From assembly GCF_003386865.1 (NCBI RefSeq), contig NZ_QTUA01000001.1:310001-374000 (forward strand): a DNA stretch of 64,000 bases, given 5' to 3'. How positions within the stretch are numbered: position 1 is the first letter of the stretch; the number at the start of each line of letters is the position of its first letter. This stretch comes from Calidifontibacter indicus. GTDB lineage: Bacteria; Actinomycetota; Actinomycetes; Actinomycetales; Dermatophilaceae. Positions 20,480-42,077 of this stretch are shown in pieces. The translations under genes were made by a program, and so were the position numbers. Under the pieces are notes generated by a model that was not told the origin of the DNA, did not search any database, and saw only the letters and a program-made list of their open reading frames with translations.

Positions 20480-20495
20480 TGTCGAGATGCAGCGA
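20480..20495 (+). repeat. Copy of the copper-island terminal tip
   Basis: TGTCGAGATGCAGCGA here is identical to the outermost 16 bases of the inverted repeats at 31887 and 39433. It is followed by unrelated sequence and then, 65 bp on, by the ISL3 element. It may be a relic of a related transposon end. Confidence 0.45.
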
Positions 20496-20559
20496 GGACT
20501 GACGATGACACGCCTTGAAGATTGACCAAATTGCATCGTCTCACTCGGCCCAGCCAATC

Positions 20560-22045
20560 TGGCTCTTCGCCGTTGAGCGTGGGTCATAGGTTCAGCCCGC
20601 CGCCGATGAGGAGCATGCGCAGGCGGTAGTTGTCCCGGTTGCGGAAGCCGCGGGCGATACGGCGGTGGAGTTCGATGAGCCCGTTCATGGCTTCGGTGCC
20701 GCCGTTGCTCGCGCCATGGGTGTCGAAGTAGCCGAGGACTCGGTACGCCACTGCTTGAGGGTGCGGCCCAGGCGGGCGACCTCACCGATCGGGCAGGTGG
20801 TGAAGGTGTCCAGTACTTGTTCGGCGATCTTGCGGCCGGCCGCGTGCGTGGGCTGGTGGTACACGGATCGGACCTGCTGCGCGCACTGCCACGCGAGTTC
20901 AACCTCGACGTGCGCCTCGTGCGCGGTGAACGCCGCGGCGAGACGTGCGCGTTGCCGGTCGGTCAGGTTCTCCTGCCCGGCGCGCAGGATGTTCCGGATC
21001 CGGTACAACGGGTCGTCACGACGGCCTCGGTGCCCGTGGAGTTGCTGCTGAACCCGGCGGCGGACCTCATCGACCATGTGGGTGGGGAGCTTGACGACGT
21101 GGAACGCGTCCAGCACCGCGCGGGCGTCCTCGAGACGATCATCGATCGCGTTCTTGTACCCGTGGAACGGGTCCAACGTCGCGACCTGCACTCGGTCACG
21201 AAAGTCTTCGCCGCGGTCGGTGAGCCAGTCGGTGTACACCTTCCCGGACCGCCCCGGGACGAGGTCGAGCAGGCGAGTTCGGTTGTGCCCGTTGGCATCC
21301 GGGGTCAGGTCGACCATCCCGGTCAGTTCTTTCGGGCCACGGCCGCCGTGCTCGACTGGCTTGGTGCTGACGTGGTGCCAGACATGCTCGTCAACACCCA
21401 GGATCGTGACGCCGTCGAATCGGGCCGGGTCGTCGGCAGCTGCTTGCAGCAGGGGCCGGATCGATTCCCACACGGTGCGCCACCCCGTGCGCCACCCGGT
21501 GCCGAGCTGCCGGCGGATCCCGTTGACACTGGCGTGCTCACGTCGGATCTGAGCGATCGCCCACCAACACGCACGCGTGGTCAGCTTGGCCCGTGGCGCC
21601 GCAACCCGGTCGTCCTGTTCGACGAACACCGTGCGGGGACAGGAAGGTTCCAGGCATCGCCAGCGTCGCTTACGCCACCGCACCCGGACCGGTCGCCCGA
21701 AACAGGGTGCGTCGACCAAGGTCACCACGTCCCGGCCGTGCCCGATCGCGACCACCCCGCATGCCGGGAACCCGACCGGTCCTGGTGCTGACTCGACCGT
21801 CACGACCACCCGGCCGGCGGTGTCGTGCTCAACGCCGATCACGTGCAACCCGGGCAGATCAACGAGCAGGTCACACCGGTCGCAGTAGCCGCCGGCAGCG
21901 CCGCAGCAGAACGTAGGCTCATCCATGTCGAGGTCCTTGCGGTCAGGGAGGTAGAAGTCCTCTGATCCTCAAGGACCTCGACCCACACCCACCGCACCCC
22001 ACTCGGCGCGCCGCCTACTCACCCACGCTCAACGGCGAAGAGCCA
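20560..22045. mobile_element. ISL3 family insertion sequence
   Basis: A 1.49-kb element with perfect 25-bp terminal inverted repeats: 20560-20584 beginning TGGCTCTTCGCCGTTGAG, and its complement at 22021-22045. The flanks (AGCCAATC and GTTGTGCC) do not form the 8-bp duplication typical of ISL3, so neighbouring DNA may have been rearranged after insertion. It contains a single transposase gene with a frameshift. Confidence 0.88.
20584..21926 (-). pseudogene. ISL3 transposase, frameshifted near the C-terminus
   Basis: From ATG 21926 the protein has the ISL3 zinc finger (FCCGAAGGYCDRCDLL), the HTH region and the DDE domain (VTILGVDEHVWHH, LDPFHGYKNAID). Reading frame changes at about 20748: after GRTLKQWRTE the sense continues in another frame as LGYFDTHGASNGGTEAMNGL, IARGFRNRDNYRLRMLLIGGGL and a stop at 20584-20586. 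A missing G in GAG(G)TCC explains it. The last ~55 residues, including the final catalytic Glu region, are lost in the present frame, so the copy is probably inactive unless the base is a sequencing error. Confidence 0.75.
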
Positions 22046-23254: not shown

Positions 23255-23270
23255 TCGCTTGTGCCGAGTG

Positions 23271-26304: not shown

Positions 26305-26320
26305 GTCATCCTCTCGCATA

Positions 26321-26337: not shown

Positions 26338-26477
26338 TTGGTCATGCCTCGTGCAACCAACGACCGCTCGACACTATTCCCGAGAACCATGGAGATTTCA
26401 CGAAGATCGTGTGACGTGTCGATCGCTTCGGCACGGTCCTTCCCCCCACGGACCCGACCGTGGTCGAGACTAGCCCG

Positions 26478-27188: not shown

Positions 27189-28288
27189 GGACTGTCGGCA
27201 GCCGATCTCGAAGCCTGGTGACCTGGCTGCTGATCGCTCAGGCCGTTGTCCTGTGTGTCACTGCGGTCGTCGCCACGGTGGCCGCCGCGGTGATCGGCCC
27301 GCCCCTGTTCCATGAACATCTGCATCTCGCCGGATCCGACACCTCGGGGTCCACCTTCGACCACGTCGAGGAGGCATTCCGGTCCGCGGGGCTCCTCACC
27401 TTGGGGGCCGCACTCCTCGCAGCCATCGCTGCCGCCGGCCTGGTCACCGTCGTCCTCGGCCGACGACTGACCGGCCCACTGCAGGACCTCGCCTCAGCCG
27501 CCACGCGTGTCGCGGACGGCCACTACGGGGCAACGGTCGCGAAGCCGACCCGCCTGAGCGAGCTTGCTGCGGTCGGCACAGCGTTCAATCGAATGTCGGC
27601 CCAGCTCGCCAGCACCGAGCAGGTGCGCCAGCAGATGCTCTCCGATCTCGGCCACGAGTTACGCACACCGCTCGCCACGATTCAGGTCTACCTCGACGCG
27701 GCCGACGACGACGTGACGAGCGGTCACGAACTCACGGCCGTGCTGCGCGAACAGGTGACCCGTCTCGACCGGCTCACGAGAGATATCAACGCAATCTCGC
27801 GGGCGGACGAATCCGCGATCACCCTCGAACGCAACCCGATCGACGTCGCCGAGCTGCTCGCTTCGGTCACTGGCCCTCGCCAAGACCACCTCAGAGCGCG
27901 CGGCCTCACGCTGGACGTGTCCGCGCCGTCCGGGACGACGCTACGCGGCGATCGCCTACGCCTGCAGCAGGTGCTGACGAACCTGCTCGACAACGCGGAG
28001 CGACACACAGCGGACGGCGGACGAATCCGGGTCACCGTCCGACCCGAGCCCCAGGCAGTGTCGATCGAGGTGGCCGACGACGGCGACGGCATCGGCGAGG
28101 AGCACCTGGCGCACGTTTTCGAACGGTTCTACCGCACCGACACCGCGCGCGACCGAGACCACGGAGGCGCGGGCATCGGCCTCGCGATCTGTCGTTCGGT
28201 GGTGCTCGCGCACGGCGGGTCGATCACGGCGCACAGCAACGGGTTCGGCACGGGCGCACGCTTTCGGATCACCCTGCCAACTCCATGA
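27185..28288 (+). CDS. Sensor histidine kinase
   Basis: A 367-residue membrane kinase. Two membrane helices (about residues 9-36 and 72-94) flank a short extracytoplasmic loop with HEHLHLAGSD. HAMP follows, then the H-box DLGHELRTPLATI, N-box LTNLLDNAERH, G1 VADDGDGIG, F-box VFERFYR and G2 GAGIGLAI, all intact. It is co-transcribed with the response regulator. The His-rich loop could bind metal, which is inference. Confidence 0.87.
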   Translation: MRTVGSRSRSLVTWLLIAQAVVLCVTAVVATVAAAVIGPPLFHEHLHLAGSDTSGSTFDHVEEAFRSAGLLTLGAALLAAIAAAGLVTVVLGRRLTGPLQDLASAATRVADGHYGATVAKPTRLSELAAVGTAFNRMSAQLASTEQVRQQMLSDLGHELRTPLATIQVYLDAADDDVTSGHELTAVLREQVTRLDRLTRDINAISRADESAITLERNPIDVAELLASVTGPRQDHLRARGLTLDVSAPSGTTLRGDRLRLQQVLTNLLDNAERHTADGGRIRVTVRPEPQAVSIEVADDGDGIGEEHLAHVFERFYRTDTARDRDHGGAGIGLAICRSVVLAHGGSITAHSNGFGTGARFRITLPTP

Positions 28289-28342
28289 AAGCTCCATAGA
28301 ACCTCGACCCGCACGTCAGATCGGTGGACGAGTCTTGTTGGT

Positions 28343-28984
28343 ATGAAACACCTTTCGACGATCACCCTCGCCGGCGCCGCCGTGCTCGCACTCACGCTCA
28401 CAGCATGCGGAAGCGACGACAGCAGCCACTCCGCGGGGCACGGATCGATGATGTCCTCGGCCGCGTCACCGGCGACTGCAGCCGGCAGGCAAGGTGACAT
28501 CAGGTTCGCGCAGCAGATGATCCCGCACCACCGCCAGGCGGTGCAGATGGCCGACATGGCGCTCAACCGGCAGGGCGTCTCGGCCGACGTCACCCGCCTC
28601 GCGGCCGCCATCAAGAAGGCACAGGATCCCGAGATCAACACGATGACCGGGTGGCTGAAGTCGTGGGGCGCGACCGTGCCGACCGGCGGCGATCACTCGG
28701 GCCACGACATGAGCAGCATGAGCGGCATGAGCGGCACGGGCGACATGACCGGAATGATGTCGCAGCAGGACATGGACATGCTCGGCAAGGCGACAGGCCC
28801 GGCGTTCGACCGGATGTGGCTGACGATGATGGTCAAGCACCACCAAGGCGCGGTCACGATGTCGTCCGACGTCAAGAAGACCACCGACAACCCGGAGGTC
28901 AGCAGCCTTGCCGACTCGATCATCAAGGCTCAGAACGCCGAGATCCGCACGATGCAGGACTTGCTGAAGACCCCCGCGGCCTGA
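28343..28984 (+). CDS. DUF305 lipoprotein, metal-associated
   Basis: A 213-residue lipoprotein. The signal peptide ends in LTLTACGSD, a lipobox with the Cys at residue 22. The mature part has two DUF305 units, each with a metal-ligand-like helix pair: IRFAQQMIPHHRQAVQMADMAL and LTMMVKHHQGAVTMSS. A linker rich in His and Met (HSGHDMSSMSGMSGTGDM) lies between them. DUF305 proteins often sit with copper-resistance genes, as here with copB and the two-component pair. It acts outside the membrane, perhaps as a copper buffer. Confidence 0.8.
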   Translation: MKHLSTITLAGAAVLALTLTACGSDDSSHSAGHGSMMSSAASPATAAGRQGDIRFAQQMIPHHRQAVQMADMALNRQGVSADVTRLAAAIKKAQDPEINTMTGWLKSWGATVPTGGDHSGHDMSSMSGMSGTGDMTGMMSQQDMDMLGKATGPAFDRMWLTMMVKHHQGAVTMSSDVKKTTDNPEVSSLADSIIKAQNAEIRTMQDLLKTPAA

Positions 28985-29028
28985 GCTCTTGCGGATGGAT
29001 CCGACCAGCAGGCAACCACCTTCGTGAC

Positions 29029-29997
29029 CTAGGCAGCCAGTCGCGCCTTGCGCTTGTCGTAGGCCCAGCCCGGCCCGCGCAGCAGGTACGACCAACGGTC
29101 GCCCCAGGTGTCAGCGCTCGCGACGTCCTTGAACATCTCGACCCATTCGTGGCTCGCGATGCGCAGCGGGTTGAAGGTGTCGATGTCGGTGGTGAGTCCG
29201 TAGACGGGCTGCGCGTTCTCGGCCTCGAAGGTGCCGAACAGCTTGTCCCAGACGATGAGGATGCTCCCGTGGTTGCGGTCGAGGTATTCGCTGTTGGTGC
29301 CGTGGTGCACGCGGTGGTGCGACGGGGTGTTGAGCACCCGTTCGAGCAGACCGATCGAACGCACCGCCTCGGTGTGGATCCAGAACTGGTAGATCAGGTT
29401 GATCGCGCGCGCGTTCATGATGTGGCTCGGGCGCACGCCCACCAGGGCGAGCAGGCTGTACGGCACCTAGAGGGTGATCGTCTCGCCCCAAGGCTGCCGT
29501 AGCGCGGTCGACAGGTTGTAGCGCTCGCTCGAGTGATGCACCTCGTGCATCGCCCACATCCACCGCACCTCGTGGTCGAAGCGGTGGTTTCAGTAGTAGA
29601 TGAAGTCCCACCCGAGCACGGCCAGCGTCGCGACGACGGCGCTGTCGCCGAGGTCGAGCGGGCTGACGTCGAACAGCTTCTGACCGGTCGTGCGCGCGCC
29701 CCATTCGGTGGCGACGACGAGTGCCGTCGATGCCACCGCAACGGCGCCGATCGCACCGGTGATGCGGTGCAGCACGGGTTTCACCGGAGGTGCGTCCGTC
29801 GTGGGTGCCGGCTGCTGGAGGGCACGGGTGTCCCAGTCGGCCACGCCGGCCTCGCCGAAGTCGTCGCTGCGCAGTTTGCGGACGACGTCGCCCGCGCGGG
29901 TGCCGGGCGCGACGGGATGCTTTCTCTGCCAGGCGTATTCGGCAGCCATCGCCCCGATGAAACCCGGGATGGCGAGCACGGTCAGGTCCAGCTTCAT
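29029..29997 (-). pseudogene. Fatty acid hydroxylase/sterol desaturase family, two stops
   Basis: The frame opens at ATG 29997 (MKLDLTVLAIPGFIGAM) and reads through to GWAYDKRKARLAA at 29029, except for TGA at 29590-29592 and TAG at 29467-29469. Around the first, DFIYY*NHRFDHEVRWMWAMHEVHHSS shows a lost Trp of the family's YYWNHR; around the second, GETITL*VPYSLLALVG also fits a Trp. The di-iron His motifs NHR..HE, HEVHHSS and HHRVHHG are all present. About 323 codons in total, so the gene is full length but nonsense-mutated twice. Confidence 0.75.
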
Positions 29998-30007
29998 GCG
30001 TCCGTCC

Positions 30008-30781
30008 TCAGTCGTTGGTTCGCAAGCCGGACACCCGCGGCAACGGGCGCAGCTTGAACATCAGGATGCCGAGGTACTTGGCCAGCACGGCCTGCTTGTG
30101 CGGGTAGCGCTGCGCGACCTCCGCGGACAGCTGCGGTTCGACGGTCGTTTCGATCCACAGCTCCGCGGCGCTGAACGTGTTGAGCAGGTCGGACATCGTG
30201 TACGGACGCTTGGTCAGCGTGACGTTCTCGTCCCAGTTCGCGTGTCGGTCGGCGAAGCTCTCGGTGGCGAAGTACTCCTGCCCGAGGGAGGTGCCGTTCT
30301 GTTCGGCCCGCTCGATCGCGTATCGGACGGGCTGGGTGCGAGTCAGCAGGATGAAGCCGGCGTCGGTGAGCATCGAGGCGGCCACCCGTAGCGCGTGCAC
30401 CGGATCGGTGGCGTAGCCGAACGACTGCAGGAACAGGACGCGATCGAATCGCCGGCCGGTCATGCCCGGCAGCACCGACAGGTCGGACAGGTCGCCCTGG
30501 ATGAACTCAACACCCGGCGGCGGCGCGATGAAGTTGCCGCTGATGTCTACGCCGACGCACGCGGCGGCGCCCTCGTCGGCCAGCTGCGCGACCTTCGCGC
30601 CGTTGCCGCAGCCGGCGTCGAGCACCGCCAGACCGGTCACGTCGCCGAGCAACTCGCGCTGCGCCGGCCACTCGACGAGTCGATCGAGCGAGTCCTCGCG
30701 GGCCCGGGCCTGCTCGAACCCGGTGGAGAGCTGCTCCCACGTCCGGCTCGAGTCGCCTGAATCGGCGGTGCTGTGAGTCAT
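30008..30781 (-). CDS. Class I SAM-dependent methyltransferase
   Basis: A 257-residue methyltransferase. GLAVLDAGCGNGAKVAQLADEG is motif I for S-adenosylmethionine binding, with acidic GVDISG and FIQGDLSDL following. FDRVLFLQSFGYATDP is the post-II region. The start is ATG 30781 (MTHSTADSGD). The substrate is not predictable; small-molecule methyltransferases of the Methyltransf_11 type are closest. It lies 10 bp from the broken hydroxylase and reads the same way, so the two may once have been an operon. Confidence 0.75.
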   Translation of the reverse strand: MTHSTADSGDSSRTWEQLSTGFEQARAREDSLDRLVEWPAQRELLGDVTGLAVLDAGCGNGAKVAQLADEGAAACVGVDISGNFIAPPPGVEFIQGDLSDLSVLPGMTGRRFDRVLFLQSFGYATDPVHALRVAASMLTDAGFILLTRTQPVRYAIERAEQNGTSLGQEYFATESFADRHANWDENVTLTKRPYTMSDLLNTFSAAELWIETTVEPQLSAEVAQRYPHKQAVLAKYLGILMFKLRPLPRVSGLRTND

Positions 30782-30829
30782 CGCCACATCATGTCGGACG
30801 CGGTTCAGCTGGCCGAGCCTCACGTTCGT

Positions 30830-31363
30830 TCAGGCTCCGACCTCGTCGAGGTCAGCCTTCGTCATGACCGAGATCGTGGTCAGTCCGATGTCGCCGAGCA
30901 CGTTCTGCGCGGGCTCGGAGCGGTCGATCGCGCAGACCACCGTGTGGACGGTTGCACCGAGCTCGCGCAGCGCAACTGCGGCGTTTCGAGCGGCTCCACC
31001 GGTGGTGACGATGTCCTCGATCAACGTGACGGTGCGGCCGCTGAAGTCGCCGCCCTCGGCCAGCTTGCAGGTGCCGTACGTCTTGGCCTCCTTCCGGACG
31101 AACACCGCGGGCAGCCCTGTCAGGGAGCTGATCATCGTCGCGATCGGAACTCCGCCCAACTCCAACCCGCCCAGCACCTGCGTGTCGGCGGGAAGGAGCG
31201 GCACCATCGCCTCGGCGACCCGACGCAGCAGGTGAGGGTCGCCCTCGAATCGGTACTTGTCGAAGTACTCGTCGGTGACGATTCCGCTGCGCAGGGTGAA
31301 GGTCCCACGAATTCGGCAGGTGGCGTCGATGTCGGCTGCGAGGGTTCGGACGTCGTTAGGCAT
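30830..31363 (-). CDS. pyrE: Orotate phosphoribosyltransferase-like enzyme (PyrE)
   Basis: A 177-residue type I phosphoribosyltransferase. The PRPP-binding motif is TVTLIEDIVTTGGAARNA, and GLELGGVPIATMIS and FVRKEAKTYGT are characteristic of orotate phosphoribosyltransferases, which make OMP from orotate and PRPP in pyrimidine synthesis. The start is ATG 31363 (MPNDVRTLAADID). It stands alone without other pyr genes and is slightly short, so another orotate-like substrate cannot be excluded. Confidence 0.75.
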   Translation of the reverse strand: MPNDVRTLAADIDATCRIRGTFTLRSGIVTDEYFDKYRFEGDPHLLRRVAEAMVPLLPADTQVLGGLELGGVPIATMISSLTGLPAVFVRKEAKTYGTCKLAEGGDFSGRTVTLIEDIVTTGGAARNAAVALRELGATVHTVVCAIDRSEPAQNVLGDIGLTTISVMTKADLDEVGA

Positions 31364-31438
31364 GTCTTGATCATCCGGCACGGCGCCTGGGCTCACGCTT
31401 TCCAGCGCCGGCTCGGCGGGCCTCGGCCGTTGGACGCG

Positions 31439-31741
31439 ATGACCACCACTCGTCCTGAGATCGTCTGCCTCTGCGGATCGGCGAGGTTCGCGAGCGAGAT
31501 GCGCGCCGCGAGTCGTGACCTGAGCCTCCGGGGAGCCATCGTGCTCGCGCCGGTCGAGATGGACGAGGTGCCTGGCCCGGAACAGAAGGATCTGCTGGAT
31601 GCCCTGCACCGGCACAAGATCGACCTGGCCGACAGGGTCTTGATCGTCAATCCCGGCGGGTATGTCGGCGAGTCGACTCGCGATGAGATTGCGTACGCCG
31701 AGGCCGCCGGCAAGCTTGTCAGCTACACGGAGCCGGACTGA
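31439..31741 (+). CDS. Nucleoside 2-deoxyribosyltransferase-like protein
   Basis: A 100-residue protein, ATG 31439. EIVCLCGSARFASEM at the start and DLADRVLIVNPGGYVGESTRDEIAYA later match the Rossmann-like fold of nucleoside 2-deoxyribosyltransferases and the DUF4406/DUF1937 group, with the conserved CGS and the VGESTR(x)E segment. It is divergent from pyrE by 75 bp, so a nucleotide salvage link is plausible, but short members like this have no proven activity. Confidence 0.55.
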   Translation: MTTTRPEIVCLCGSARFASEMRAASRDLSLRGAIVLAPVEMDEVPGPEQKDLLDALHRHKIDLADRVLIVNPGGYVGESTRDEIAYAEAAGKLVSYTEPD

Positions 31742-31886
31742 CGACGCCGGACGAGCGGACCGCGGGATGGGTACCTGCCCTGGTACCCAAGTGAGGGGCT
31801 GATCGCGCAGTTCTCGAGGGAATCAGCGCTCTGACCTGCACAAACGCCTTCGGACGGAGGCACGGTGAAGGCACTAAGGCCATTGA

Positions 31887-32073
31887 TGTCGAGATGCAGC
31901 GAACTTTGATCAAACGGCGATTCGATCAAAGTGGGGCCTCGTTTGGCTCTCATTGGGCATTGCGATTGCACAGATTGGACACTTGTCCGGTGTGAGAACT
32001 GTTCTCATCGTGGTCACGTTGCAGCATTCATGCAGGTCAACGAGTCGACGCATTCGCGTGGTCGAGTTATGTA
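31887..32073 (+). repeat. Left long inverted repeat of the island
   Basis: Begins TGTCGAGATGCAGCGAACTT. It contains a small hairpin (CTTTGATC...GATCAAAG), then TTGCACAGATTGGACACTTGT, then the palindrome TGAGAACTGTTCTCA, and ends AGTTATGTA, where the truncated IS3 begins. It aligns over its length with the complement of 39246-39433. Confidence 0.7.
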
Positions 32074-32670
32074 CCACGAGGTGTATTGGGCTCCTCTGTC
32101 CGAATGCACCGTGGTCCCAACGGGTTTGCGTTGCCATCGCGCCATGTCGAGGGCGTCGACGACCAGCTCGGTGCGCAGGTGGTCAGCGATGGACCAGCCC
32201 ACGCAGCGGCGGGAATGCACGTCGATCACCGCCGCGCAGTAGACCCATCCCTCGCTGGTGCGGTGCTGGGTGATGTCGGTGACCCACAACCTGTTCGGGG
32301 CGTCCGCGACGAACTTGCGTTGCACGTGGTCCTCGAACACCGCCTCGGAGCGTTTCGCGTGCCGCCACCTGCGGCGGTGCACACCCTGCAGCCCGTGGAC
32401 CCGCATGAGCCGTTCCACGCGTTGCCGGCCGCAGCGGCGGTCCTGACTGAGGGTGAGCTCAGCATGGACGCGACGGACCCCGTACGTGCCACGGGCATCA
32501 GCGTGGACGGCGATGATCGCGTCGAGCAGGTGCGCGTCCTCAAGGTCACGGCTGCTCGGGCCACGGGTACGCCACTCGTAGTAGCCCGAGGTGGAGACCT
32601 TCAACACCCGGCACGTCACCGCCACAGGCAAGCCCTGAGCGGCGAGTTCGTGGACGAACCGGAACCCCAT
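32074..32670 (-). pseudogene. IS3 family transposase OrfB, C-terminally truncated
   Basis: The frame from ATG 32670 (MGFRFVHELAAQGLPV) has the HTH_21 region (VLKVSTSGYYEW, GTYGVRRVHAEL) and the rve core (RKFVADAPNRLWVTDITQHRT with the first Asp, then HSDRGAQYTSW with the second). It stops at 32074, where island-end sequence starts, so the last ~70 residues including the catalytic Glu are missing. It is normally made by -1 frameshifting from OrfA. It is not functional. Confidence 0.82.
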
Positions 32671-32948
32671 TTTGGGAGCACGTTCTCCCGCGCGAAGTAC
32701 GCCGAGGCCCGCTTGAGGATCTCGATCTCCATCGCCTGGACTCGAGTCTCCCGGCGCAGCCGGACCAGCTCGGCCCGCTCGTCTTTGGTCAGGCCGTGGC
32801 CGGCGTCGATATCGGCTTGGTCCATCCACCGCCTCAGGCATGACTCACTGATCGAGAGGTCCTTGGCGATCTGGGCGATTGGCTTCTCCCTCAAACGCGC
32901 TAACTCCACGGCGCGCTGCCGGAACTCCGGCGACTTCGGTGCAGGCAT
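32616..32948 (-). CDS. IS3 family OrfA
   Basis: A 110-residue protein with the HTH of transposase_8 (PAPKSPEFRQRAVELARLRE, IAQIAKDLSISESCLRRWM). A leucine-zipper helix follows (RLRRETRVQAMEIEILKRA) and ends in the typical ASAYFARENVLPK; the frame runs on for ~18 residues past the usual end. Start ATG 32948 with GGAG before it. The IS outer end probably lies near 33015 (complement of CTCAGGACAGGTCA). Its partner OrfB is truncated. Confidence 0.8.
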   Translation of the reverse strand: MPAPKSPEFRQRAVELARLREKPIAQIAKDLSISESCLRRWMDQADIDAGHGLTKDERAELVRLRRETRVQAMEIEILKRASAYFARENVLPKWGSGSSTNSPLRACLWR

Positions 32949-33080
32949 CTCCTGTACTCCTTCCCGAGAGGATCATCCCCTCAAGATCGGTGCCCGGAAA
33001 CCTCAGGACAGGTCATTGCCGAGTCAGGCCGTGCGGCTGCGGAGGGGAGGCGATCCCCGGAGTCGAGTCTTGAATATTGG

Positions 33081-34202
33081 CTAACGCCCGGGGAGTGGGA
33101 GGGTGAGTATGAGGCGTGTGCCTTCTCCCTGGCCGTCACTGTTGGCGGAGATGCTTCCATGGTGGGCGTCGATGAGAGCTTTGCTGATGGTCAGCCCGAT
33201 GCCTGAACCTGTGCGGTCGCGGGTGCGGGCGGCGTCACCTCGATAGAACCGTTCGAAGGCGTGCTCGAGTTGTTCGGGGGTCATTCCGTCGCCGTCGTCG
33301 ATCACGGAGATTGCCGCTTCTTCACCTTGGCGGTTGGCCGCCAGGATGACGGTTCCTCCTGGGGGGGGTGTGGCGGAGTGCACTGGTGAGGAGATTGGTG
33401 AGGACCTGTCCGATGCGGTTTCGATCGACGTGGACATCGAGCCCTGTGGCGGTTGGTGGCTCGACGACGAGGTTGATCCCCTTGGCGGCAAAGGCGTCAG
33501 GCATGCCCTCGTGGGCCGGCCAGAGAAGATCCCTGACGTGGTGTGGGCGGAGGTCGAGCGCGAGTCGGCCCTCCTCGGCTGGCGCGCCTCGTCGATGTCG
33601 TCGGCGAGGCGCGCCAGCCGGCGGGTTTGCTCCTCCAGCGCCTCGCGAGATTCTGGCCCGAGGGCGGCCATGCCGTCGTGGAGCCCTTCGTGGTAAGCGC
33701 TCAGGGTCGCAATCGGTGTGCGGAGTTCATGGGCGAGGTCTGACAGCATCCGTCGACGGGTGTCCTCGATTCCTTCGAGCCTGCTGGCCATCGTGTTGAA
33801 CGCGGTTGCGAAGGTCTCCAGTTCGGTGCCTGAGGCGCTGGTCGGCACGCGCGTGGAGTAGTGCCCACGGGTGAGTTCCATTGCAGCAGTGGTCACCTGT
33901 TCGAGAGGGCGGCGGAGCCGTCGGGTGAGGAACCATGTCACCGCACCGGCAGCGAGCAGCGAGATCAGAAGACCGACCCCGACGGAGATCAAGGACGCTT
34001 CGCGGTAGGCCGTCTCGATATGGACGAGCTCAGGCGAGTTCTGTTGGTGGCCGGACTCGACGAGGTGCTGGTGGAAGATGGGTGGGCCGATCATGGCGGC
34101 GACCAGGCCGACAGTGAGGGCACCGGCGACCAGCACGATGGCCTGTCCAGCCAGGAGGCGGGTCGCCAGCCCAGCGCTGTTGGTGCGCGCTGGCGCCATC
34201 AC
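33081..34202 (-). pseudogene. Sensor histidine kinase with a mis-framed middle
   Basis: It starts at GTG 34202 (overlapping the regulator's stop) with two membrane helices, HAMP and a good H-box (LSDLAHELRTPIATL). From about 33590 the frame reads nonsense (DDIDEARQPRRADSRSTSAH). The true sense, AEEGRLALDLRPHH and NRIGQVLTNLLTSALRHTPP with the N-box, lies in another frame until a run of eight G at 33361-33368, after which the original frame gives VIDDGDGM, FERFYRGD and GSGIGLTI. Two opposite indels therefore destroy about 80 residues. Either the kinase is dead or the sequence has two errors. Its twin is at 27185-28288. Confidence 0.75.
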
Positions 34203-34922
34203 CCTTGTCCCATCCGATAGCCCACGCCTCGGACCGTGGTGATGTATCTGCCAGTTTCGGGGTCGTCGCCGAGTTTGCGGCGCAGGTGAGCAACGTGAAC
34301 ATCGACGAGGTGCTCGTCGCCAACCCAGTCCGGTCCCCAGATGTCGTCAATGAGCTGGCGCCGGGAGAACGCCATCGACGGACGGCGCGCCAGAGCCATG
34401 AGCAGGTCACCGTTCGGTGGGGGTGAGGGCCACCTCGACGTCGCCCAGGTGCACACGCTGGCCGTCCGCGTCGACACGTAGTGCACCGAACACCCTGGTC
34501 GGTTCACTACGGGCGGTCCCGGAGGCGGTGGTGGATCCGGTGCGGGGTCGTCGCAGTACCGCTTGGACTCGTGCGACCAGTTCGCGGACGCTGAACGGTT
34601 TGGTGATGTAGTCGTCCGCGCCGACGGACAACCCGATGAGGGTGTCGATCTCGTCCTTTCGGGCGGTGACGACGATGACGTAGCAGTCGGTGAAGGTGCG
34701 GAGCTGACGGCACACTTCGATGCCGTCCAGCCCGGGGAGGCCCAAGTCCAGGATCACGACATCGGGTGCTAGATCACGCGCGGCTTGGACGCCGTCTGGG
34801 CCGGTGTGGACCACACTGGAGTCGAAGCCAGCGCGGGAGACGTAGGCGGCGATCATTCCGGCCAGCGTTGTTTCGTCCTCGATGATCAGGACTCGAGCGC
34901 CCGGTGGTGGTGTCGTGCTCAC
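34199..34922 (-). pseudogene. OmpR-type response regulator, frameshifted
   Basis: From GTG 34922, STTPPPGARVLIIEDE, VVILDLGLPGLDG (phospho-Asp) and YITKPFSVREL form an intact receiver. At LTPTER (about 34407) a TGA follows, while the sense continues in another frame as DLLMALARRPSMAFSRRQLID to HLRRKLGDD and GVGYRMGQG, ending at 34199. A single indel near 34410 splits the DNA-binding domain. In this state it cannot bind DNA. It is closely related to the regulator at 26478-27188. Confidence 0.75.
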
Positions 34923-35085
34923 CCTGACAGTGTCCCTGCCCGCCGCCCACGCCACGACCTCTCTGACGGTGCCGGGGTAGATCTTCGTCAAACCTCAACC
35001 TCGCCGCGGTCCGGTCTTGAGGGTCGAGTTGCACTGTGGATCGTGACGGTGCAGCGCGCCACGACGACGGGAAGGGAGGGCGCTC

Positions 35086-35325
35086 ATGATGTGGGGCAAC
35101 GGGACCGGGATGGGCTGGTGGATGTGGCTCGTGATGGGCGGCGGCGCCCTCGCCTTCTGGGTCGTCATTGTGCTGGTGATCCGGGCCCTGCTCCCGGCCG
35201 CGCGCGTCAGGCAGGAATCGGCCCGACCGGATCCGCTCACTCTCCTCAAGGAGAGCCTGGCCCGCGGCGAGGTGAGCCTGGAGGAGTACGAACAACGCCG
35301 CCGCCTCATCGTCGATGGCCACTGA
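35086..35325 (+). CDS. Small membrane protein with SHOCT domain
   Basis: A 79-residue protein with a Trp/Met/Gly-rich start (MMWGNGTGMGWWMW), one membrane helix (LVMGGGALAFWVVIVLVIRALL), and a C-terminal SHOCT motif (DPLTLLKESLARGEVSLEEYEQRRRLI). Such proteins are common next to multicopper oxidases in actinobacterial copper islands. It lies 25 bp before the oxidase and is probably in its operon. The function is unknown. Confidence 0.75.
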   Translation: MMWGNGTGMGWWMWLVMGGGALAFWVVIVLVIRALLPAARVRQESARPDPLTLLKESLARGEVSLEEYEQRRRLIVDGH

Positions 35326-35350
35326 CAGCGACCACCCAATGAAAGGCATC

Positions 35351-36853
35351 ATGACTTCGCCCCTGCTCTCCCGCCGCAACGTCCTCCTCGGCGGGCTCGG
35401 CCTGGCCTCGACCGCAACGTTGGCCGCCTGCACCTCCAGTTCGTCAGGGACGGGGGTTATGCCGTCGCGCACCTTCGGCCCCCCGACGCCAGTCTCCCCC
35501 TCACCGGGACAGAAGGTGCTCGAGAAGACGTTGACCGCCCGACCGGTCAGCCTTGACCTGGGCGGGCGGACGGTGGCGACGTGGGCCTACGACGGTGCGC
35601 TTCCCGGCCCGTTGGTGCGAGCGACCGCAGGTGACTTCCTGCGCCTCACGCTCGACAACCAGCTCCCCGCAGACACCACGATCCACTGGCACGGCATCCG
35701 ACTGCCAAACGCCGCCGACGGCGTCCCCGGCCTCACCCAGGATCCGGTCAAGACCGGCGGCAAGTTCGTGTACGAGTTCACCGCCCCGGATCCGGGAACC
35801 TACTTCTTCCACCCCCACGTCGGGGTCCAACTCGACCGCGGCCTGTACGCCCCAATGATCATCGACGACCCCACCGACCCCGGCCGCTACGACGCCGAAT
35901 GGGTTGTGGTTCTGGACGACTGGATCGATGGCACCGGCACCACCCCCGACGAGGTGTTCAAGAAGCTGATCGCCGACGGTGGCCCCGCCAACGGAGGCGG
36001 CATGGGCGGAATGGGTGGCATGGACCACGGCTCGATGAGTCGGATGTCGATGGGGACCGGACCCTGGGGTGACGCCGGCGACGTCACCTATCCGCTGTTC
36101 TTGATCAACGGCAAACCCCCGACCGACCCGGACGTGCTGGCCGCCAAGCCGGGCCAGAAGGTGCGGCTGCGGGTCATCAACGCGGCTTCCGACACCATCT
36201 TCACCGTGGCCCTTGGTGGGCACCGGCTCACCATCACCCACAGTGACGGGCACGCGGTCGAGCCCACCGAGGTGGGCGCCTTCTACATCGGGATGGGCGA
36301 GCGGTACGACGCCATCGTCACCCTCGCTGACGGCGCCTTCCCCCTTGTGGCCCGACCGTTCGGCAAGACCAGCGGCGGCCAGGCCATGGCCGTGGTCCGT
36401 ACCGGCGCCGGCGCTGCTCCTCCGGTTGCCGCTGACCCCAGCGAGTTGGCTGGCCAGGTCCTCATCGGCTCACAGTTGCGCCCGACCGAAGCAGCCAAGC
36501 TGCCGGGCAAGGAGCCGGACGCCACCGTCGACCTGGCCCTGCAAGGCTCGATGAAGCCCTACCAGTGGGGCATGAACGGCGCCAAGTACGGCGAGAACGA
36601 GCCACTGACCGTCAGGGCTGGGCGACGGCTGCGGATCAACGCCACCAACATGACGATGATGACCCACCCGCTGCACCTGCACGGGCACACTTTCGCCCTG
36701 CCCTCGGGGCTGCGCAAGGACACCGTGCTGATGGCGCCCATGCAGTCCTTCGCGATCGACCTCGACGCCGACAACGCCGGCGACTGGATGATCCACTGCC
36801 ACAACATCTACCACGCAGAAGCGGGCATGATGATCGCCCTGGAGTACCGCTGA
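35351..36853 (+). CDS. Multicopper oxidase, Tat/lipoprotein-exported
   Basis: A 500-residue CopA/CueO-type oxidase. The signal has LSRRNVLLGG (Tat-like) and ends LAACTS, a lipobox. The copper ligands are visible: TTIHWHGIR (type 2/3), GTYFFHPHVG (type 3), HPLHLHGHTF and the C-terminal MIHCHNIYHAEAGMM, with the type 1 Cys and Met. A Met/Gly-rich loop (GGMGGMGGMDHGSMSRMSM) may bind Cu(I). It should oxidise Cu(I) to Cu(II) outside the membrane. I start at ATG 35351 with AAAGG ahead; ATG 35339 is possible. Confidence 0.88.
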   Translation: MTSPLLSRRNVLLGGLGLASTATLAACTSSSSGTGVMPSRTFGPPTPVSPSPGQKVLEKTLTARPVSLDLGGRTVATWAYDGALPGPLVRATAGDFLRLTLDNQLPADTTIHWHGIRLPNAADGVPGLTQDPVKTGGKFVYEFTAPDPGTYFFHPHVGVQLDRGLYAPMIIDDPTDPGRYDAEWVVVLDDWIDGTGTTPDEVFKKLIADGGPANGGGMGGMGGMDHGSMSRMSMGTGPWGDAGDVTYPLFLINGKPPTDPDVLAAKPGQKVRLRVINAASDTIFTVALGGHRLTITHSDGHAVEPTEVGAFYIGMGERYDAIVTLADGAFPLVARPFGKTSGGQAMAVVRTGAGAAPPVAADPSELAGQVLIGSQLRPTEAAKLPGKEPDATVDLALQGSMKPYQWGMNGAKYGENEPLTVRAGRRLRINATNMTMMTHPLHLHGHTFALPSGLRKDTVLMAPMQSFAIDLDADNAGDWMIHCHNIYHAEAGMMIALEYR

Positions 36854-37764
36854 TGATCACCACCACCCGACGCCGCGTCCTCGTCGCAGGGGGCGTACTC
36901 GTGACCACGACGATTCTGGCCGCGTGTGGCGCCACGACCACACCCACCGGCAATACGACGTCCATCGCGACCCCCACCGTGGCCGGAGGAGGGTCAACCT
37001 CCACCGCATCAGCAGCCAACCAACCGCCGGTCGCGATCACCCACATCCACGCTGTCGCCCGCGACCCCAAGACCGGTGACCTACTCCTGGCCACCCACGA
37101 GGGACTCTTCCGCCACGCCAACGGCGAACTCCTACAGAACGGACCGGTCATCGACCTGATGGGTTTCACCGTCGCCCCGGACGGCACCTACTACGCCTCA
37201 GGGCACCCCGGCGCAGGCGTCGACCTGCCCCAGCCGGTCGGGCTCATCACCTCCACCGACTCCGGTCGCACGTGGCGCGTCAGCTCTCGAGGCGGAGAGT
37301 CCGACTTCCACGCCCTCACCTCAAGCCCAACCAGCGTGGTCGGCTTCGATGGCACTCTTCGCAGCACCACCGACGGCGAGACCTGGACCACCCGCACCAT
37401 CCCGGCTGCCCCCCGCACCTTGGCCGCGTCACCGCAAACCGGAGCACTACTCGCCACCACCGAAACCGGGCTCCTCCACAGCACCGACGACGGCCGCTCC
37501 TGGAAGGGCCTGACCCCACCCGCGACGGCCCTGCTCGCTGCGTGGGCCGACGAGCAAACCATCGTGATCGCCACCACTAACGGCCAGATCGCGACCAGCA
37601 ACGACACCGGAGCGACCTGGACCCTGCAACCCAAGCGCATCGGAGCTCCACAGGCCCTGTTCGCCCAACGCGGCACCGACGGCCAGATCGAAACCATCCT
37701 CGTCGCCGACGGCGCAGTACTGCGCACCGCCGACGGGGGCGCCACCGTCGAGAAGCTCTTGTGA
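36853..37764 (+). CDS. Beta-propeller lipoprotein (F510_1955-type)
   Basis: A 303-residue exported protein whose ATG overlaps the oxidase stop (TGATG). The N-terminus TTRRRVLVAGG then ILAACG is Tat-like plus lipobox. The body has repeated BNR/sortilin-type blades (STDSGRTWRV, STTDGETWTT, STDDGRSWKG, SNDTGATWTL, TADGGATVEK) and a starting ITHIHAVARDP. It always seems to follow multicopper oxidases in such islands and is probably an accessory copper-site protein; no catalytic role is shown. Confidence 0.75.
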   Translation: MITTTRRRVLVAGGVLVTTTILAACGATTTPTGNTTSIATPTVAGGGSTSTASAANQPPVAITHIHAVARDPKTGDLLLATHEGLFRHANGELLQNGPVIDLMGFTVAPDGTYYASGHPGAGVDLPQPVGLITSTDSGRTWRVSSRGGESDFHALTSSPTSVVGFDGTLRSTTDGETWTTRTIPAAPRTLAASPQTGALLATTETGLLHSTDDGRSWKGLTPPATALLAAWADEQTIVIATTNGQIATSNDTGATWTLQPKRIGAPQALFAQRGTDGQIETILVADGAVLRTADGGATVEKLL

Positions 37765-37885
37765 AGCCCGCATAGACCTAGACCAGATCTTCACCGAACC
37801 ACGACCCGAGGGCCACATCGACCTCGCAGGCCGAAAGCACCCGGGGACAGCCCCGAGCACCGCAACCGAGACCAAGGGAGCAGCC

Positions 37886-38163
37886 ATGCAACAGCAGAAC
37901 ACCCCGAACCCGACCTACGCACCCCTCACCCCACCCGCCGAGCCGACCTCCACCGAGTCATCCCCCACTGAGCCCGGTCGCCGCAGCGGCCACCACTGGC
38001 TGATGTGGCTATGTGCGTGCCCATGCTGCTGCTCGTGGGCACCTTGATCACGACCGGCCGGCTCGGCGCCGGCGGCCTGCTCTACGCAATGGGCTGCCTG
38101 CTCATGATGGGCGTGATGATGGCCTGGATGAACCACGGCACCAACCACGAGCACAAGCCGTGA
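37886..38163 (+). pseudogene. Small membrane protein, frameshifted
   Basis: From ATG 37886 (AAGGGAG ahead) the frame reads QQQNTPNPTYAPLTPPAEP to HHWLMWL, then Cys-rich nonsense to a stop at 38046-38048. In another frame the sense continues as VPMLLLVGTLITTGRLGAGG, LYAMGCLLMMGVMMAWMNHGTNHEHKP, ending at 38163. One indel near 38012 separates the soluble start from two membrane helices. It is probably a DUF2933-like copper-island protein. Confidence 0.55.
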
Positions 38164-38197
38164 GAACCCCAACCGCCCCACGACCCAGCATCAGGGA

Positions 38198-38214
38198 ATA
38201 CCCCTAGGGGGTAT
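38198..38214. promoter_or_regulatory. CsoR-type copper operator before copZ
   Basis: ATACCCCTAGGGGGTAT is the same kind of dyad as at 26321-26337. It lies 41 bp before the CopZ start. This suggests the island's chaperone is controlled by the same CsoR as the chromosomal copB. Confidence 0.7.
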
Positions 38215-38255
38215 GTTTGTTGGGAGGGTGTCACCTACAGAAGAGGCCAGACCTG

Positions 38256-38466
38256 ATGAACTCCACCCAGACGTATGCCGTCACTGGAATGACCTGTGGC
38301 CACTGCGAGAGCAGCGTCCGCGACAAGGTCTCCGCACTGCCAGGCGTGCAAGCCTGACCGTCAGCGCCGCCACCGGCGAACTGATCATCACTACTAGTGG
38401 TCACGTCTCCGACGACGCTGTCGTCAGCGCCGTCGTCGAGGCGGCTACACCGCCCGCCGCAACTGA
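38256..38466 (+). pseudogene. copZ: CopZ-like heavy-metal chaperone, two frameshifts
   Basis: ATG 38256 opens NSTQTYAVTGMTCGHCESSVRDKVSALPGVQ, a clear HMA domain with the MTCGHC copper site. A TGA follows, but the sense resumes one frame over as LTVSAATGELIITTSGHVSDDAVVSAVVEA and must shift again near 38442 to end GYTARRN at 38464-38466. Both breaks fit loss of one base in runs of three A and three G. The gene would encode ~70 residues. It is either inactivated or mis-sequenced. Confidence 0.7.
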
Positions 38467-38473
38467 CCCACGC

Positions 38474-39245
38474 CTAGCTGTACTGACCCGCCAGGTTGGG
38501 TACGCGGTCTGCAGGTGTGGCGCCTTTGAGTGCGGTGTGGCCGCGGTCGTGATTGTAGGTGTGGAGGAAGTTGGGGAAGGCCGCGACGCGTTCGCTCTCG
38601 CTGGAGTAGGGGCGGGCGTAGGCCCATTCCTCTTGCAGGGTGCGGTTGAACCGCTCGACCTTGCCGTTGGTTTGCGGCCGGTAGGGGCGGGTCCACTTGT
38701 GCTTGATCCCGTGCTCGGCCAACAGGTCCCGGAACATCCGCGAGCGGTAGCAGGCCCCGTTGTCGGTCATCACCCGCTGGGTGGTGATGCCGACGGAGTT
38801 GAAGTGCTCTAGGGCGCGGGCCATGAACGCTGTCGCAGTCTCCCTCTTCTCATCGGTCAGGATCTCGGAGTAGGTGTAGCGCGAGTGGTCATCGACCGCA
38901 TGGTGCAAGAACGCGTACCCCAGGTTCGGGCGGCCGTGGACCTTGCGTGGCCGGCCTTGTTCCCGGTGAGCGCTGGAGTTGCGCCCGCCCTGTGCTCGTC
39001 CGTGGATGCGATGCCCTCCGCCGTCGGGGATGCGGCCCAGCTTCTTGATGTCGACGTGGACCAGGTCCCCGGGCGCTTCGCGTTCGTAGCGCACGATCTG
39101 CCGTCGCTTCGCGCGGACCGGGGCCCCGGTTGCCGGGTCGGTCCAGGACAGGCGCAGGCACCCGTAGCGGGACAGGATCCGCTGGACCGTAGAGACGTTC
39201 AAGCCCAGGTGGTACGCGATCCGTGCTTGTACGCACGAGTAACTT
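38474..39245 (-). pseudogene. IS481 family transposase, N-terminally truncated
   Basis: Readable from about 39225 (ARIAYHLGLNVSTVQRILSRYG) to TAG at 38474. The DDE catalytic core is complete: GDLVHVDIKKLG, DDHSRYTYSEIL, MTDNGACYRS and GKVERFNRTLQEEW. The N-terminal HTH is missing because island-end sequence begins at 39245. An ATG at 39202 would give 242 residues. Probably inactive. Confidence 0.82.
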
Positions 39246-39433
39246 TACATAACTGTTGCCGCGCCCATTGCCACTCCTCTGACCTGCAGCAACATCGAGA
39301 CCGTTTGTCAGTGAGAACAGTTCTCACGTCGAACAAGCGTCCAGATTGTGCAATTTCGATCCCGGAAGAGTGCTGAACACAGCCCCGACTTTGATCGAAC
39401 GGCAGTTTGACCAATGTTCGCTGCATCTCGACA
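39246..39433 (-). repeat. Right long inverted repeat of the island
   Basis: Read on the minus strand it begins TGTCGAGATGCAGCGAACAT and follows the left repeat: TTGGTCAAACTGCCGTTCGA, TTGCACAATCTGGACGCTTG, the palindrome TGAGAACTGTTCTCA and AGTTATGTA. It is followed outward by ATTGA and the end of dnaB. Confidence 0.7.
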
Positions 39434-39449
39434 ATTGAGCCAACTCAGG

Positions 39450-42077
39450 TCAGAAGTTCGTCGCCATGTCCTTGAACCGCGAGTAGTGCCCCTGGAACGC
39501 AACGGTGATGGTGTCGGTCGGGCCGTTACGGTGCTTGGCCACGATGATGTCGGCCTCACCGACGCGCTCCGACTCCTTGTTCTGCTGGTCTTCGCGGTGC
39601 AGCAGCATCACCATGTCGGCGTCCTGCTCGATTGATCCAGATTCGCGAAGGTCACTCATCTGCGGACGCTTGTCGGTGCGCTGCTCAGGACCACGGTTCA
39701 GCTGCGAGATCGCAATCACCGGCACCTCGAGTTCCTTCGCGAGCAGCTTCAGCGCACGCGAGAACTCGGACACCTCCTGCTGGCGCGACTCGACCTTCTT
39801 GCCCGACGTCATCAGCTGCAGATAGTCGATGACGACGAGCTTGAGGTTGTGGCGCTCCTTGAGCCGGCGGCACTTCGAGCGGATCTCCATCAGCGACATG
39901 TTCGGCGAGTCGTCGATGAACAGCGGTGCGTCGGAGATGCGGCCCATCGTCTTCGCCAGCTTGGCCCAGTCTTCGTCGCGCATCGTGCCCTTGCGCATGT
40001 GCTGCAACTGGATCTCGGCCTCCGCCGACAGCAGACGCATCGAGATCTCGACCTTGCTCATCTCCAGACTGAAGACGACCGAGGTCATGTTGTTCTTGAT
40101 CGACGCCGCGCGCGCGATGTCGAGTCCGATCGTCGAGTTGTGCGTCGGGATCATCGAGCGACTCGCGAGGTAGAGGTGCGATCCGTTGTCGACCTGCACG
40201 CAACGCACCGGCACCGATTCGACCGGGCGCACGTCGACGATGAACTGCGAGTCACGACGCTCGAAGGAGCGCTGACGAATCTCCTTGTGCAACAACCGCT
40301 TTCGATCGAGCCGGAACATGTCGTCGTTGCTCGAGAAGGTCAGAGTGTGAGCGATCGAGCTTGCCTCCGATCGACCGTGCACCGCCTTTCGCGACACCCC
40401 ACAGCGGTAGCCCAGCGACACCACGAGCTCGCGGACGTCGGCAGCCAGCCGCTCCGAGGTCGACGTGAACTGCACGCACCCGCCCGAGGTGACGGTGCCG
40501 TCGGTGTCGAGCAGGCCCGCCAGCAACTCGCGTCGCTGCCACTCACTCGCCCGCAGGTACGACCCGGGGATGTGCTTGTCGCCGAGCACGCCGAGGCCGC
40601 GAAGCAGGCCACGCACCGTGCCGTGCTCGAGATGGCAGGTCCGGCAACGCCGCATCCCCGACGACGGCCTTCCGCAATCGGGGCAGACCGGAGGAACGGT
40701 CTTCGCCGAGACAGTCTTCGCCCGGCCGCCGCAGCTGCGTCCACACGTCTTCACTTGCGCAGTCTGCGGGACGAACTCCGCACCGCACACGACGCAGACT
40801 CGCGCCGAGATCGGCTCGACCGGCAGCTTCAGCGAGTAACGCATCCTGCCGGACGTGGCCTCGACGACCAGCCCCTCACCGCGCAACAACTCCACCATCT
40901 GGTCGTCGGCTGTCGTTATCTGCGCCGCGGCCGACGAACCGTCACCGAGCCATGCACCGAGCACGTAGGGCGACAACGGAAGGTCGGCAAGCTCACCGGC
41001 CAGCGGTGCGCTCAACCGGACACTGTGATTGCGGCGGGCGTCAGCCGTGTCGCAGCGCTGGGTTTCGAAGATCTCGACGGTGGTGCGCACCTCGGGGCCG
41101 ACCTTCGCGGCCGCGCCACGCTTGCGGGCTTCCTGCTGCGCGCGGCGACTGGCGCGGGTGTCGGTGAGCCACTGGTGCTGCGCGTCGGCGGTGATGACGG
41201 TGCCGTCGGTGAACTCCACCTCGAAACACGGACGGTCGAGCATGACCCCGGTGGCCGCGACGACGCGCGTCGGCAGACCGTCTTCACCGATCAGCTCGTC
41301 GCCGACCTGCACCTCGCCCATCGTCGTCCAGCCGGTGGGCGTGGGCAGCGGGGTGTCGAGAGCGAGCGCCTTTCCGACGGCGGGCCTCGCCGCGATGACA
41401 ATCATCTGCCCCGGGTGCAGACCGTTGGTGAGCGTGTCGAGCTCCTGAAACCCGGTGGGCACACCGGTCATCTGGCCGCCGTGCGACGACGCCGCCTCGA
41501 TCTCGTCGGCGGTCATCTCGACCACCTCACCGAGACGCACGTAGTCTTCGGTGTCTTTGCCGGCGGTGACGCCGAAGATCTCGGCCTGGGCCGCATTGAT
41601 GACGTCGACGACGTCGCCCCCGCCGTCGGACTGCCCCATCTGGACGATGCGCGTGCCGGCCTCGACGAGGCGGCGCAGCACCGCACGCTCGGCGACGATC
41701 TGCGCGTAGTAACCGGCGTTGGCCGCGGTGGGCACCGACTGGATCAGCTCGTGCAGGTAGGGCTGGCCACCGATGCGCTGCAGTTCGCCACGCTTGGCGA
41801 GCTCGTCGGCGACGGTGATCGCGTCGGCCGGCTCACCGCGTCCGTAGAGGTCGATGACCGCTTCGTAGATCATCTCGTGGGCCGGGAAGTAGAAGTCGCG
41901 CCCGTTGACCGCCTCGGCGGCGTCGGCGATCGCGTCCTTGCTGATCAGCATGCCGCCGATCACCGACTGCTCGGCGTGCCGGTCTTGCGGGGGCACCAGC
42001 CCGGGCGCGGTCTCGCCGCCACCCCCGGAGTAACCGGAGTTGCCCTGCTCGCCGTACGCCGGATTCAGATCGTCCAC
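39450..42077 (-). CDS. dnaB: Replicative DNA helicase DnaB with intein
   Basis: An 875-residue precursor, GTG 42077. The extein halves total 464 residues, the normal DnaB length. Residues 1-236 contain the N-terminal helical domain and RecA-like start up to RPAVGK (Walker A). Residues 648-875 give STIGLDIARAA, VVIDYLQLM, ISQLNRGPEQR and KHRNGPTDTITV. The intein (residues 237-647) splits Walker A between GK and ST, so helicase activity depends on splicing. The protein unwinds DNA at the replication fork as a hexamer. It is reached from the rplI operon after an insert of cell-wall and MATE genes. Confidence 0.95.
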   Translation of the reverse strand: MDDLNPAYGEQGNSGYSGGGGETAPGLVPPQDRHAEQSVIGGMLISKDAIADAAEAVNGRDFYFPAHEMIYEAVIDLYGRGEPADAITVADELAKRGELQRIGGQPYLHELIQSVPTAANAGYYAQIVAERAVLRRLVEAGTRIVQMGQSDGGGDVVDVINAAQAEIFGVTAGKDTEDYVRLGEVVEMTADEIEAASSHGGQMTGVPTGFQELDTLTNGLHPGQMIVIAARPAVGKALALDTPLPTPTGWTTMGEVQVGDELIGEDGLPTRVVAATGVMLDRPCFEVEFTDGTVITADAQHQWLTDTRASRRAQQEARKRGAAAKVGPEVRTTVEIFETQRCDTADARRNHSVRLSAPLAGELADLPLSPYVLGAWLGDGSSAAAQITTADDQMVELLRGEGLVVEATSGRMRYSLKLPVEPISARVCVVCGAEFVPQTAQVKTCGRSCGGRAKTVSAKTVPPVCPDCGRPSSGMRRCRTCHLEHGTVRGLLRGLGVLGDKHIPGSYLRASEWQRRELLAGLLDTDGTVTSGGCVQFTSTSERLAADVRELVVSLGYRCGVSRKAVHGRSEASSIAHTLTFSSNDDMFRLDRKRLLHKEIRQRSFERRDSQFIVDVRPVESVPVRCVQVDNGSHLYLASRSMIPTHNSTIGLDIARAASIKNNMTSVVFSLEMSKVEISMRLLSAEAEIQLQHMRKGTMRDEDWAKLAKTMGRISDAPLFIDDSPNMSLMEIRSKCRRLKERHNLKLVVIDYLQLMTSGKKVESRQQEVSEFSRALKLLAKELEVPVIAISQLNRGPEQRTDKRPQMSDLRESGSIEQDADMVMLLHREDQQNKESERVGEADIIVAKHRNGPTDTITVAFQGHYSRFKDMATNF
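40137..41369 (-). other. DnaB intein, class 3 type, with homing endonuclease
   Basis: 411 residues (237-647). It starts with Ala (ALALDTPLPTPTGW) instead of Cys/Ser. It has the class 3 WCT set: Trp303 (AQHQWLT, block B), Cys626 (VPVRCVQVD, block F) and Thr645 in the final IPTHN before Ser648. Two LAGLIDADG motifs are seen, YVLGAWLGDG (371-380) and LLAGLLDTDG (518-527). Between them lie two zinc-ribbon-like clusters: Cys428/431/445/449 and Cys465/468/478/481. This places it with actinobacterial/phage class 3 DnaB inteins. Splicing is inferred, not seen. Confidence 0.88.

Follow-up and report, generated by a model that had tools for sequence, protein, structure and literature searches.

We analyzed a 64,000-nt stretch of the Calidifontibacter indicus genome (contig NZ_QTUA01000001.1, positions 310,001 to 374,000; hereafter the window), in which a 7,547-bp unit carrying copper genes (31887-39433) lies directly behind the replication gene dnaB. 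With a probability of about 0.8, this unit is a non-autonomous Tn7-like transposon with two right-type ends, which was put behind dnaB by the machinery of an autonomous relative. The evidence comes from its ends and their 5-bp target-site duplication (TSD), an uninterrupted version of the target, a complete element at the same place in a sister species, and the recurrence of such ends behind dnaB. Below, G000 is the host genome, G001 and G002 are the other two genomes of the genus (G002 being the sister species), and L numbers are the loci fetched from the genomes compared.

Boundaries of the unit and its uninterrupted target

An earlier note on this DNA, made from the letters alone, had proposed paired inverted ends with flanking 5-bp copies at 31887 and 39433, and both were confirmed at these positions. 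Both ends begin with the same 18-bp tip, at 31887 (+) and at 39433 (-), and each tip is flanked by ATTGA; from the base composition, the chance of ATTGA is 2.3e-4 and that of any two 5-mers matching is 1.75e-3. The alignment of the two ends that the note had suggested gave 79% over ~122 bp. With the tip excluded, 117/159 aligned bases are equal (z = 25 against shuffles), and the palindrome TGAGAACTGTTCTCA lies at equal depth in both ends, ~107 bp inward. Both are AT-richer than their surroundings (52% versus 66-69% G+C). The left end is homologous to a G002 right end to 32073, and a few further bases are common to ~32081. The left end extends to ~32080, and the right end continues inward beyond the proposed 39246 to ~39222-39228. 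Remnants of insertion sequences (IS) abut the repeats as described, an IS3-family copy joined at ~32081 and an IS481-family copy at ~39222. Neither end matched any plasmid at E 1e-5.

Features of the boundaries:
31785..31886, + strand: half of the split target on the left of the unit (96% identity to L181:8519-8620, the uninterrupted site in G017)
31882..31886, unstranded: left ATTGA of the 5-bp target duplication (ATTGA is present once in the uninterrupted site L181)
31887..32080, + strand: right-type end on the left side of the unit, with the tip TGTCGAGATGCAGCGAAC (matches the G002 right end at 97% over 187 bp; alignment against shuffles)
31993-32007: palindrome TGAGAACTGTTCTCA of the left end
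39223..39433, - strand: right-type end on the right side of the unit, next to dnaB (matches the dnaB-side G001 right end at 82% over 206 bp; alignment against shuffles)
39312-39326: palindrome TGAGAACTGTTCTCA of the right end
39434..39438, unstranded: right ATTGA of the 5-bp target duplication (ATTGA is present once in the uninterrupted site L181)
39434..39449, unstranded: the 16 nt from the tip to the dnaB stop codon, dnaB-side half of the split target
39450..42077, - strand: dnaB, with the recurrent landing site at its 3' end

The left flank was used as a query against 186 family genomes. It matched G017, a member of another genus, at 96% over 102 bp, in a stretch that runs to the final base of the query; elsewhere the flank matched many of the genomes, as expected of ordinary genes. 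Locus L181 of G017 reads CACTAAGGCC-ATTGA-GCCAACTCAGG, with exactly the boundaries that the earlier note had predicted for an empty site. Because L181 joins the left flank of the window to its dnaB-side flank through one ATTGA, 31887-39433 is read from sequence as having gone in as one unit with a 5-bp duplication.

The L181 site is the end of a ~401-bp segment with imperfect inverted repeats CCTGASTTGGSTCA. At L181:7964-8897, this segment sits between two 267-bp direct copies of a region that, from its sequence features, we take to be part of a relaxase gene, on a 135-kb contig that is probably plasmid-like. Long matches to the segment occur in G000 and G017 only, and short ones of 21-38 bp in five other genomes (7/186 altogether). 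A plasmid search with the flank segment found no match at E 1e-5. The segment either stood formerly behind dnaB in the lineage of the window or carried dnaB-side sequence to G017, and either history yields an uninterrupted version of the target. We had also considered the pyrE gene flanking the unit as an ordinary chromosomal pyrE and dropped this, as the flank pyrE is not common to the genus: it is only 35% identical to the other pyrE-like gene in G000 and to the best matches in both genus mates.

Types of the two ends

End types were assigned from the three genomes of the one genus, using alignments with the tip left out and z scores against shuffles. The end at 31887 matched the G002 right end at 161/166 positions (z = 73) and the G001 right end with z = 22, versus z ≤1.2 for left ends. 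Similarly, the end at 39433 matched the G001 right end (z = 43) and the G002 right end (z = 27), versus z ≤1.7 for left ends. Since both window ends match right ends and neither matches left ends, the unit is right-right, with a right-type end on both sides. Distinct left and right ends, a property of Tn7-like elements, are present in G002 and lacking in the window unit, which we therefore file as a two-right-end derivative rather than a standard member. In the available part of the report on synthetic Tn7, two right ends are functional and two left ends are not (PMC11406308), and a preprint on a type I-F3 system, as far as its text was available, cites lowered transposition for elements with two right ends and an absence of transposition for those with two left ends (PMC13370975). 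The window unit would thus be a natural case of the synthetic-Tn7 finding that two right ends suffice, and the uninterrupted site supports the insertion of this natural two-right-end form as a unit.

A complete relative at the same place

A related right end adjoins dnaB in all three genomes of the genus. In G002, a complete element of 18.4 kb occupies the same place (C1:2975798-2994229), with tips at 2975798 and 2994229 and GGCGT flanking both. From the right end inward, it carries a gene for a 327-amino-acid (aa) protein, the genes for TnsA, TnsB and TniB, a pair of TniQ-type genes and type I restriction genes. The TGT tip and the 5-bp target duplication of Tn7-like elements are both present. 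TnsB of G002, a DDE transposase, matches Mu-transpos_C above the cut-off and rve below it, and gave no match at E 0.1 in a phmmer search of PDB. TnsB relatives at E ≤1e-20 occur in 41/186 family genomes; we define the clade as G002 plus 23 further TnsB loci at ≥37% identity (24 loci), a cut-off that excluded G007 (34%, at a contig end). The TnsC/TniB component matches PF05621 above the cut-off in G002 and L144 and has a match in 24/24 clade loci. The second tniQ gene, the TniQ/TnsD component, matches PF06527 above the cut-off in G002 and has its match in 23/24 loci; the first has no match in G002, and its positional counterparts score above the cut-off in L138 but fall short of it in L144 and L147. 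In G105, two copies of the tns operon (L139 and L140) have equal match coordinates and identities, one beside dnaB and the other without dnaB in the fetched stretch.

Two candidate gene assignments in G002 were rejected. The 327-aa gene beside the right end has a nuclease-like look and was tried as TnsA, but it has no Pfam or family match, and the other clade loci contain no relative of it at E 1e-5. An 864-aa open reading frame (ORF) was tried as TnsB and dropped, as its N-terminal part overlaps the real tnsA.

The conserved gene before tnsB aligns with three outgroup TnsA proteins of other Tn7-like elements (translated matches, E 3e-11 to 8e-16). The Pfam model TnsA-like_N matches 1/10 dnaB-clade members (L138, below the cut-off) versus 3/3 of the outgroup (one above the cut-off), and a TnsA profile against PDB found a TnsA fusion at E 0.48 only. 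The weakness of the Pfam model on the clade indicates that the clade TnsA is divergent, and since it is weak by profile, we assigned TnsA by homology and position. In all 22 readable clade TnsA sequences, Arg stands at the position of the DVKP Lys (13-protein alignment and translated matches; L006:16810-17769, L129-L150, L154), a count that includes both identical-looking G105 copies; L135 is unreadable at this position and L146 gave no TnsA match. The three outgroup proteins retain the Lys.

TGT tips and 5-bp TSDs also occur in Tn402/Tn5053. This shared feature, together with the single, below-cut-off Pfam TnsA match among ten dnaB-clade members, would suit an element of another TnsB-like group (Tn402/Tn5053 or IS21). 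Such an assignment is very improbable, given autonomous relatives with a TnsA homologue, two TniQ-type genes, a fixed gene order and a recurrent landing site, and given that the TnsA homologue aligns with three outgroup TnsA proteins, one of them above the Pfam cut-off.

The 3' end of dnaB as a recurrent landing site

In the window, the right end lies beside the dnaB 3' end, its tip 16 nt past the stop codon. Among the clade TnsB loci, dnaB is on the right-end side in 21/24 (18 seen directly, together with G011, G136 and, from TSD-paired tips, G036), versus 0/3 distant TnsB loci. We defined a clear tip as 10 letters with at most one mismatch, within 60 nt of the dnaB stop. A clear tip is present 0-25 nt behind the stop in 34/62 distinct dnaB 3' ends (8 more are loose and uncounted), a proportion that is not a frequency because many of the 62 loci were fetched for the tip or for TnsB. 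As a background, 81/20,000 random 60-nt stretches of loci L129-L150 contain a clear tip. Among 30 loci fetched by dnaB alone, clear tips occur in 6/18 from the family and in 0/12 from other families. In the G007 locus L126, the tip is 1 nt behind dnaB. TniQ probably reads the dnaB 3' end.

The tip pattern occurs in 60/186 family genomes and its backward-read control in 0/186. At least one 5-bp pair accompanies it in 9/17 genomes listed (G000 and G002 included); single pairs in this listing can be chance. Ends are often nested or stacked and share 5-bp flanks. That a tip-like sequence recurs many times in the family would also fit two independent copies of an unrelated intergenic repeat with ATTGA matching by chance. 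However, L181, in which both flanks are joined by one ATTGA, contradicts this, as does the complete tns operon of G002 bracketed by the same ends and a TSD, leaving such a repeat hardly credible.

The earlier note had described a passenger-carrying, non-autonomous element of the TnsB/TniA type, and had proposed a search for elements with the same ends plus a DDE transposase. The G002 element answers this search with TnsA, TnsB, TniB/TnsC and two TniQ-type genes, and, having ends of the same kind, it supports the proposed type. The right-type nature of both ends and the recurrence of landing behind dnaB had been missed.

Two side observations concern dnaB. At G112:C1:169821-225853, a dense stack of nested and back-to-back tips with several 5-bp pairs lies beside dnaB. 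In addition, an intein-like insert, identified by its motifs, interrupts dnaB (window 39450-42077; L004; L005), and its position in G001 and G002 differs from that in the window.

Proposed insertion of the two-right-end unit

In the proposed sequence of events, TnsA and TnsB of a G002-like autonomous relative would have bound both right-type ends, and TnsC with a TnsD-like TniQ would have guided the complex to the dnaB 3' end. The unit would then have been joined 16 nt past the stop codon, with ATTGA duplicated. A G002-like transposase probably carried out the insertion, and the unit probably already had two right ends when it moved.

Several points weigh against this reading. The insertion is deduced by comparing sequences, no transposition having been observed. 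The earlier note had looked to relatives for the empty site, and while its boundaries were borne out, the site found is not the orthologous dnaB locus: it is a homologous copy in another genus, within a small inverted-repeat segment on a plasmid-like contig. In 2/24 clade TnsB loci (G104 and the second copy in G105), dnaB is absent from the fetched stretch, G062 runs off its contig, and the nearest clear tip in G136 is 65 nt behind dnaB. Nor is the tip exclusive to dnaB. A scan of named genomes found it in 90 stretches, and in the 80 named loci returned, 10/84 tips directly follow dnaB; these are from Dermacoccus, Flexivirga, Nocardioides and mycobacteria. As only part of these tips are behind dnaB, the tip marks a wide family with several target sites, dnaB being one. 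Finally, the two window ends are of different lineages, one near G002 and one near G001.

Because the ends differ in lineage, the present left end may be a later substitute for an original one. In that case, a Tn7-like element of the ordinary left-right kind would have landed first, and its left end would later have been swapped for a G002-like right end, either by recombination via the 18-bp tip or by insertion and deletion. The identities (left 97% to G002, right 82% to G001) agree with this history, the broken IS copies at the two inner borders are evidence of rearrangement, and stacked and nested ends are common at the site. However, such a swap must hit the tip exactly and keep the TSD intact, and 31887-32080 has no similarity to the left ends tested. 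We thus consider a later swap unlikely and favor the insertion of a two-right-end unit.

More tentatively, and with rather less than even odds, an Actinomycetota Tn7-like clade uses the dnaB 3' end as its attachment site and spins off natural two-right-end cargo units, and its Lys-to-Arg change in TnsA makes its movement at least partly replicative. In the part of PMC8649781 available, catalytic-site tnsA mutations end cut-and-paste but not replicative transposition, and the Arg at the DVKP position may have the effect of such mutations. The change makes cut-and-paste versus replicative movement a testable question. In Actinomycetota, this landing site behind an essential replication gene would be one where defence, metal and other cargo accumulate.

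Cargo and condition of the unit

The cargo lies between the two IS remnants.
32081..32948, - strand: IS3-family remnant whose transposase lacks its C-terminal part where it meets the left end (above cut-off for NCBIfam transpos_IS3, profile 88-290 of 369)
33081..34202, - strand: sensor histidine kinase, middle part out of frame (decay or sequencing error)
34199..34991, - strand: response regulator in two separate ORFs, 34199-34507 and 34407-34991 (frameshift or sequencing error)
35315..36853, + strand: multicopper oxidase, intact (PF07732, PF07731, PF00394)
36853..37764, + strand: lipoprotein-like BNR/YCF48-like protein (matches below cut-off)
38474..39222, - strand: IS481-family remnant whose transposase lacks its N-terminal part where it meets the right end (above cut-off for NCBIfam transpos_IS481, profile 95-284 of 284)

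The two-component system looks decayed, and sequencing error could account for the defects in both kinase and regulator. A TnsB search of the window matched only the IS481 remnant (E 1.6e-4), and searches of the window for TnsA, TniB and TniQ found nothing better than E 0.02. The host genome G000 contains no clade TnsB at E ≤1e-20, and the unit therefore looks stranded in its host. Among plasmids, the copper genes matched 307 records, of which none covers 80% of the query; identity is 65-68% in the 12 rows listed, and 16 further records have shorter places at 80-95%. The copper cargo is of a common kind, and these plasmid matches say nothing on the ends.

Neighboring elements in the window

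One further end lies outside the unit.
20480..20669, + strand: left-type end of a separate element, outside 31887-39433 (end comparison)

The block 20477-29194, which starts at this end, is 98.8% identical to G001:C1:243752-252505, versus 83-93% beside and within dnaB, and looks recently transferred. It contains a copper-type P-type ATPase, a two-component system and DUF305. An element spanning 20480 to 39433 was considered and dropped, as the flanks differ (TTAGC versus ATTGA) and the uninterrupted site sets the boundary at 31887. Type I restriction genes at 12416-17463 are 89-94% identical to cargo of the autonomous G002 element; they are ~22-27 kb from dnaB in the window versus ~10-16 kb in G002.

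Comparison with known systems

In the literature searched, which left supplements and most subscription journals outside, a dnaB attachment site is not named. The word dnaB is absent from the main texts of Benler et al. 2021 and Faure 2023, and papers containing both 'Tn7-like' and 'dnaB' use them, in the passages available, in contexts unrelated to attachment. The Actinobacteria-dominated clade 2 of Benler et al. (PMC8649781), in the part of that paper available, shares Actinomycetota hosts, tns genes and defence and metal-resistance cargo with the elements described here, and its members are said there to be experimentally uncharacterised; this likeness is by hosts and cargo and involves no placing in a tree. 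Tn7706 of Rhodococcus erythropolis is likewise an actinobacterial Tn7-like element with tnsA, tnsB, tniQ and tniB (19.4 kb), likened by gene content and not by end sequence. It differs in that, by the available part of its description, copies are found on most contigs of its strain and on plasmids of related strains, and the word dnaB is absent from the main text (PMC12915292). A Tn7-like transposon of Pseudomonas syringae (reference 40 of PMC8649781), judged by its title alone, likewise carries copper resistance, in another host.

In Tn7, tnsABC adjoins the right end, and the right end lies beside the attachment gene. Tn7 of E. coli, which uses attTn7 behind glmS and TnsABC+D, shares the 5-bp TSD and the insertion just past a conserved gene, according to the available parts of two reports (PMC11406308, PMC2918618). 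The elements described here differ in using dnaB instead of glmS, in their pair of TniQ proteins and in the Arg of the clade TnsA where DVKP has Lys, and the window copy differs further in lacking tns genes and in its natural two-right-end form.

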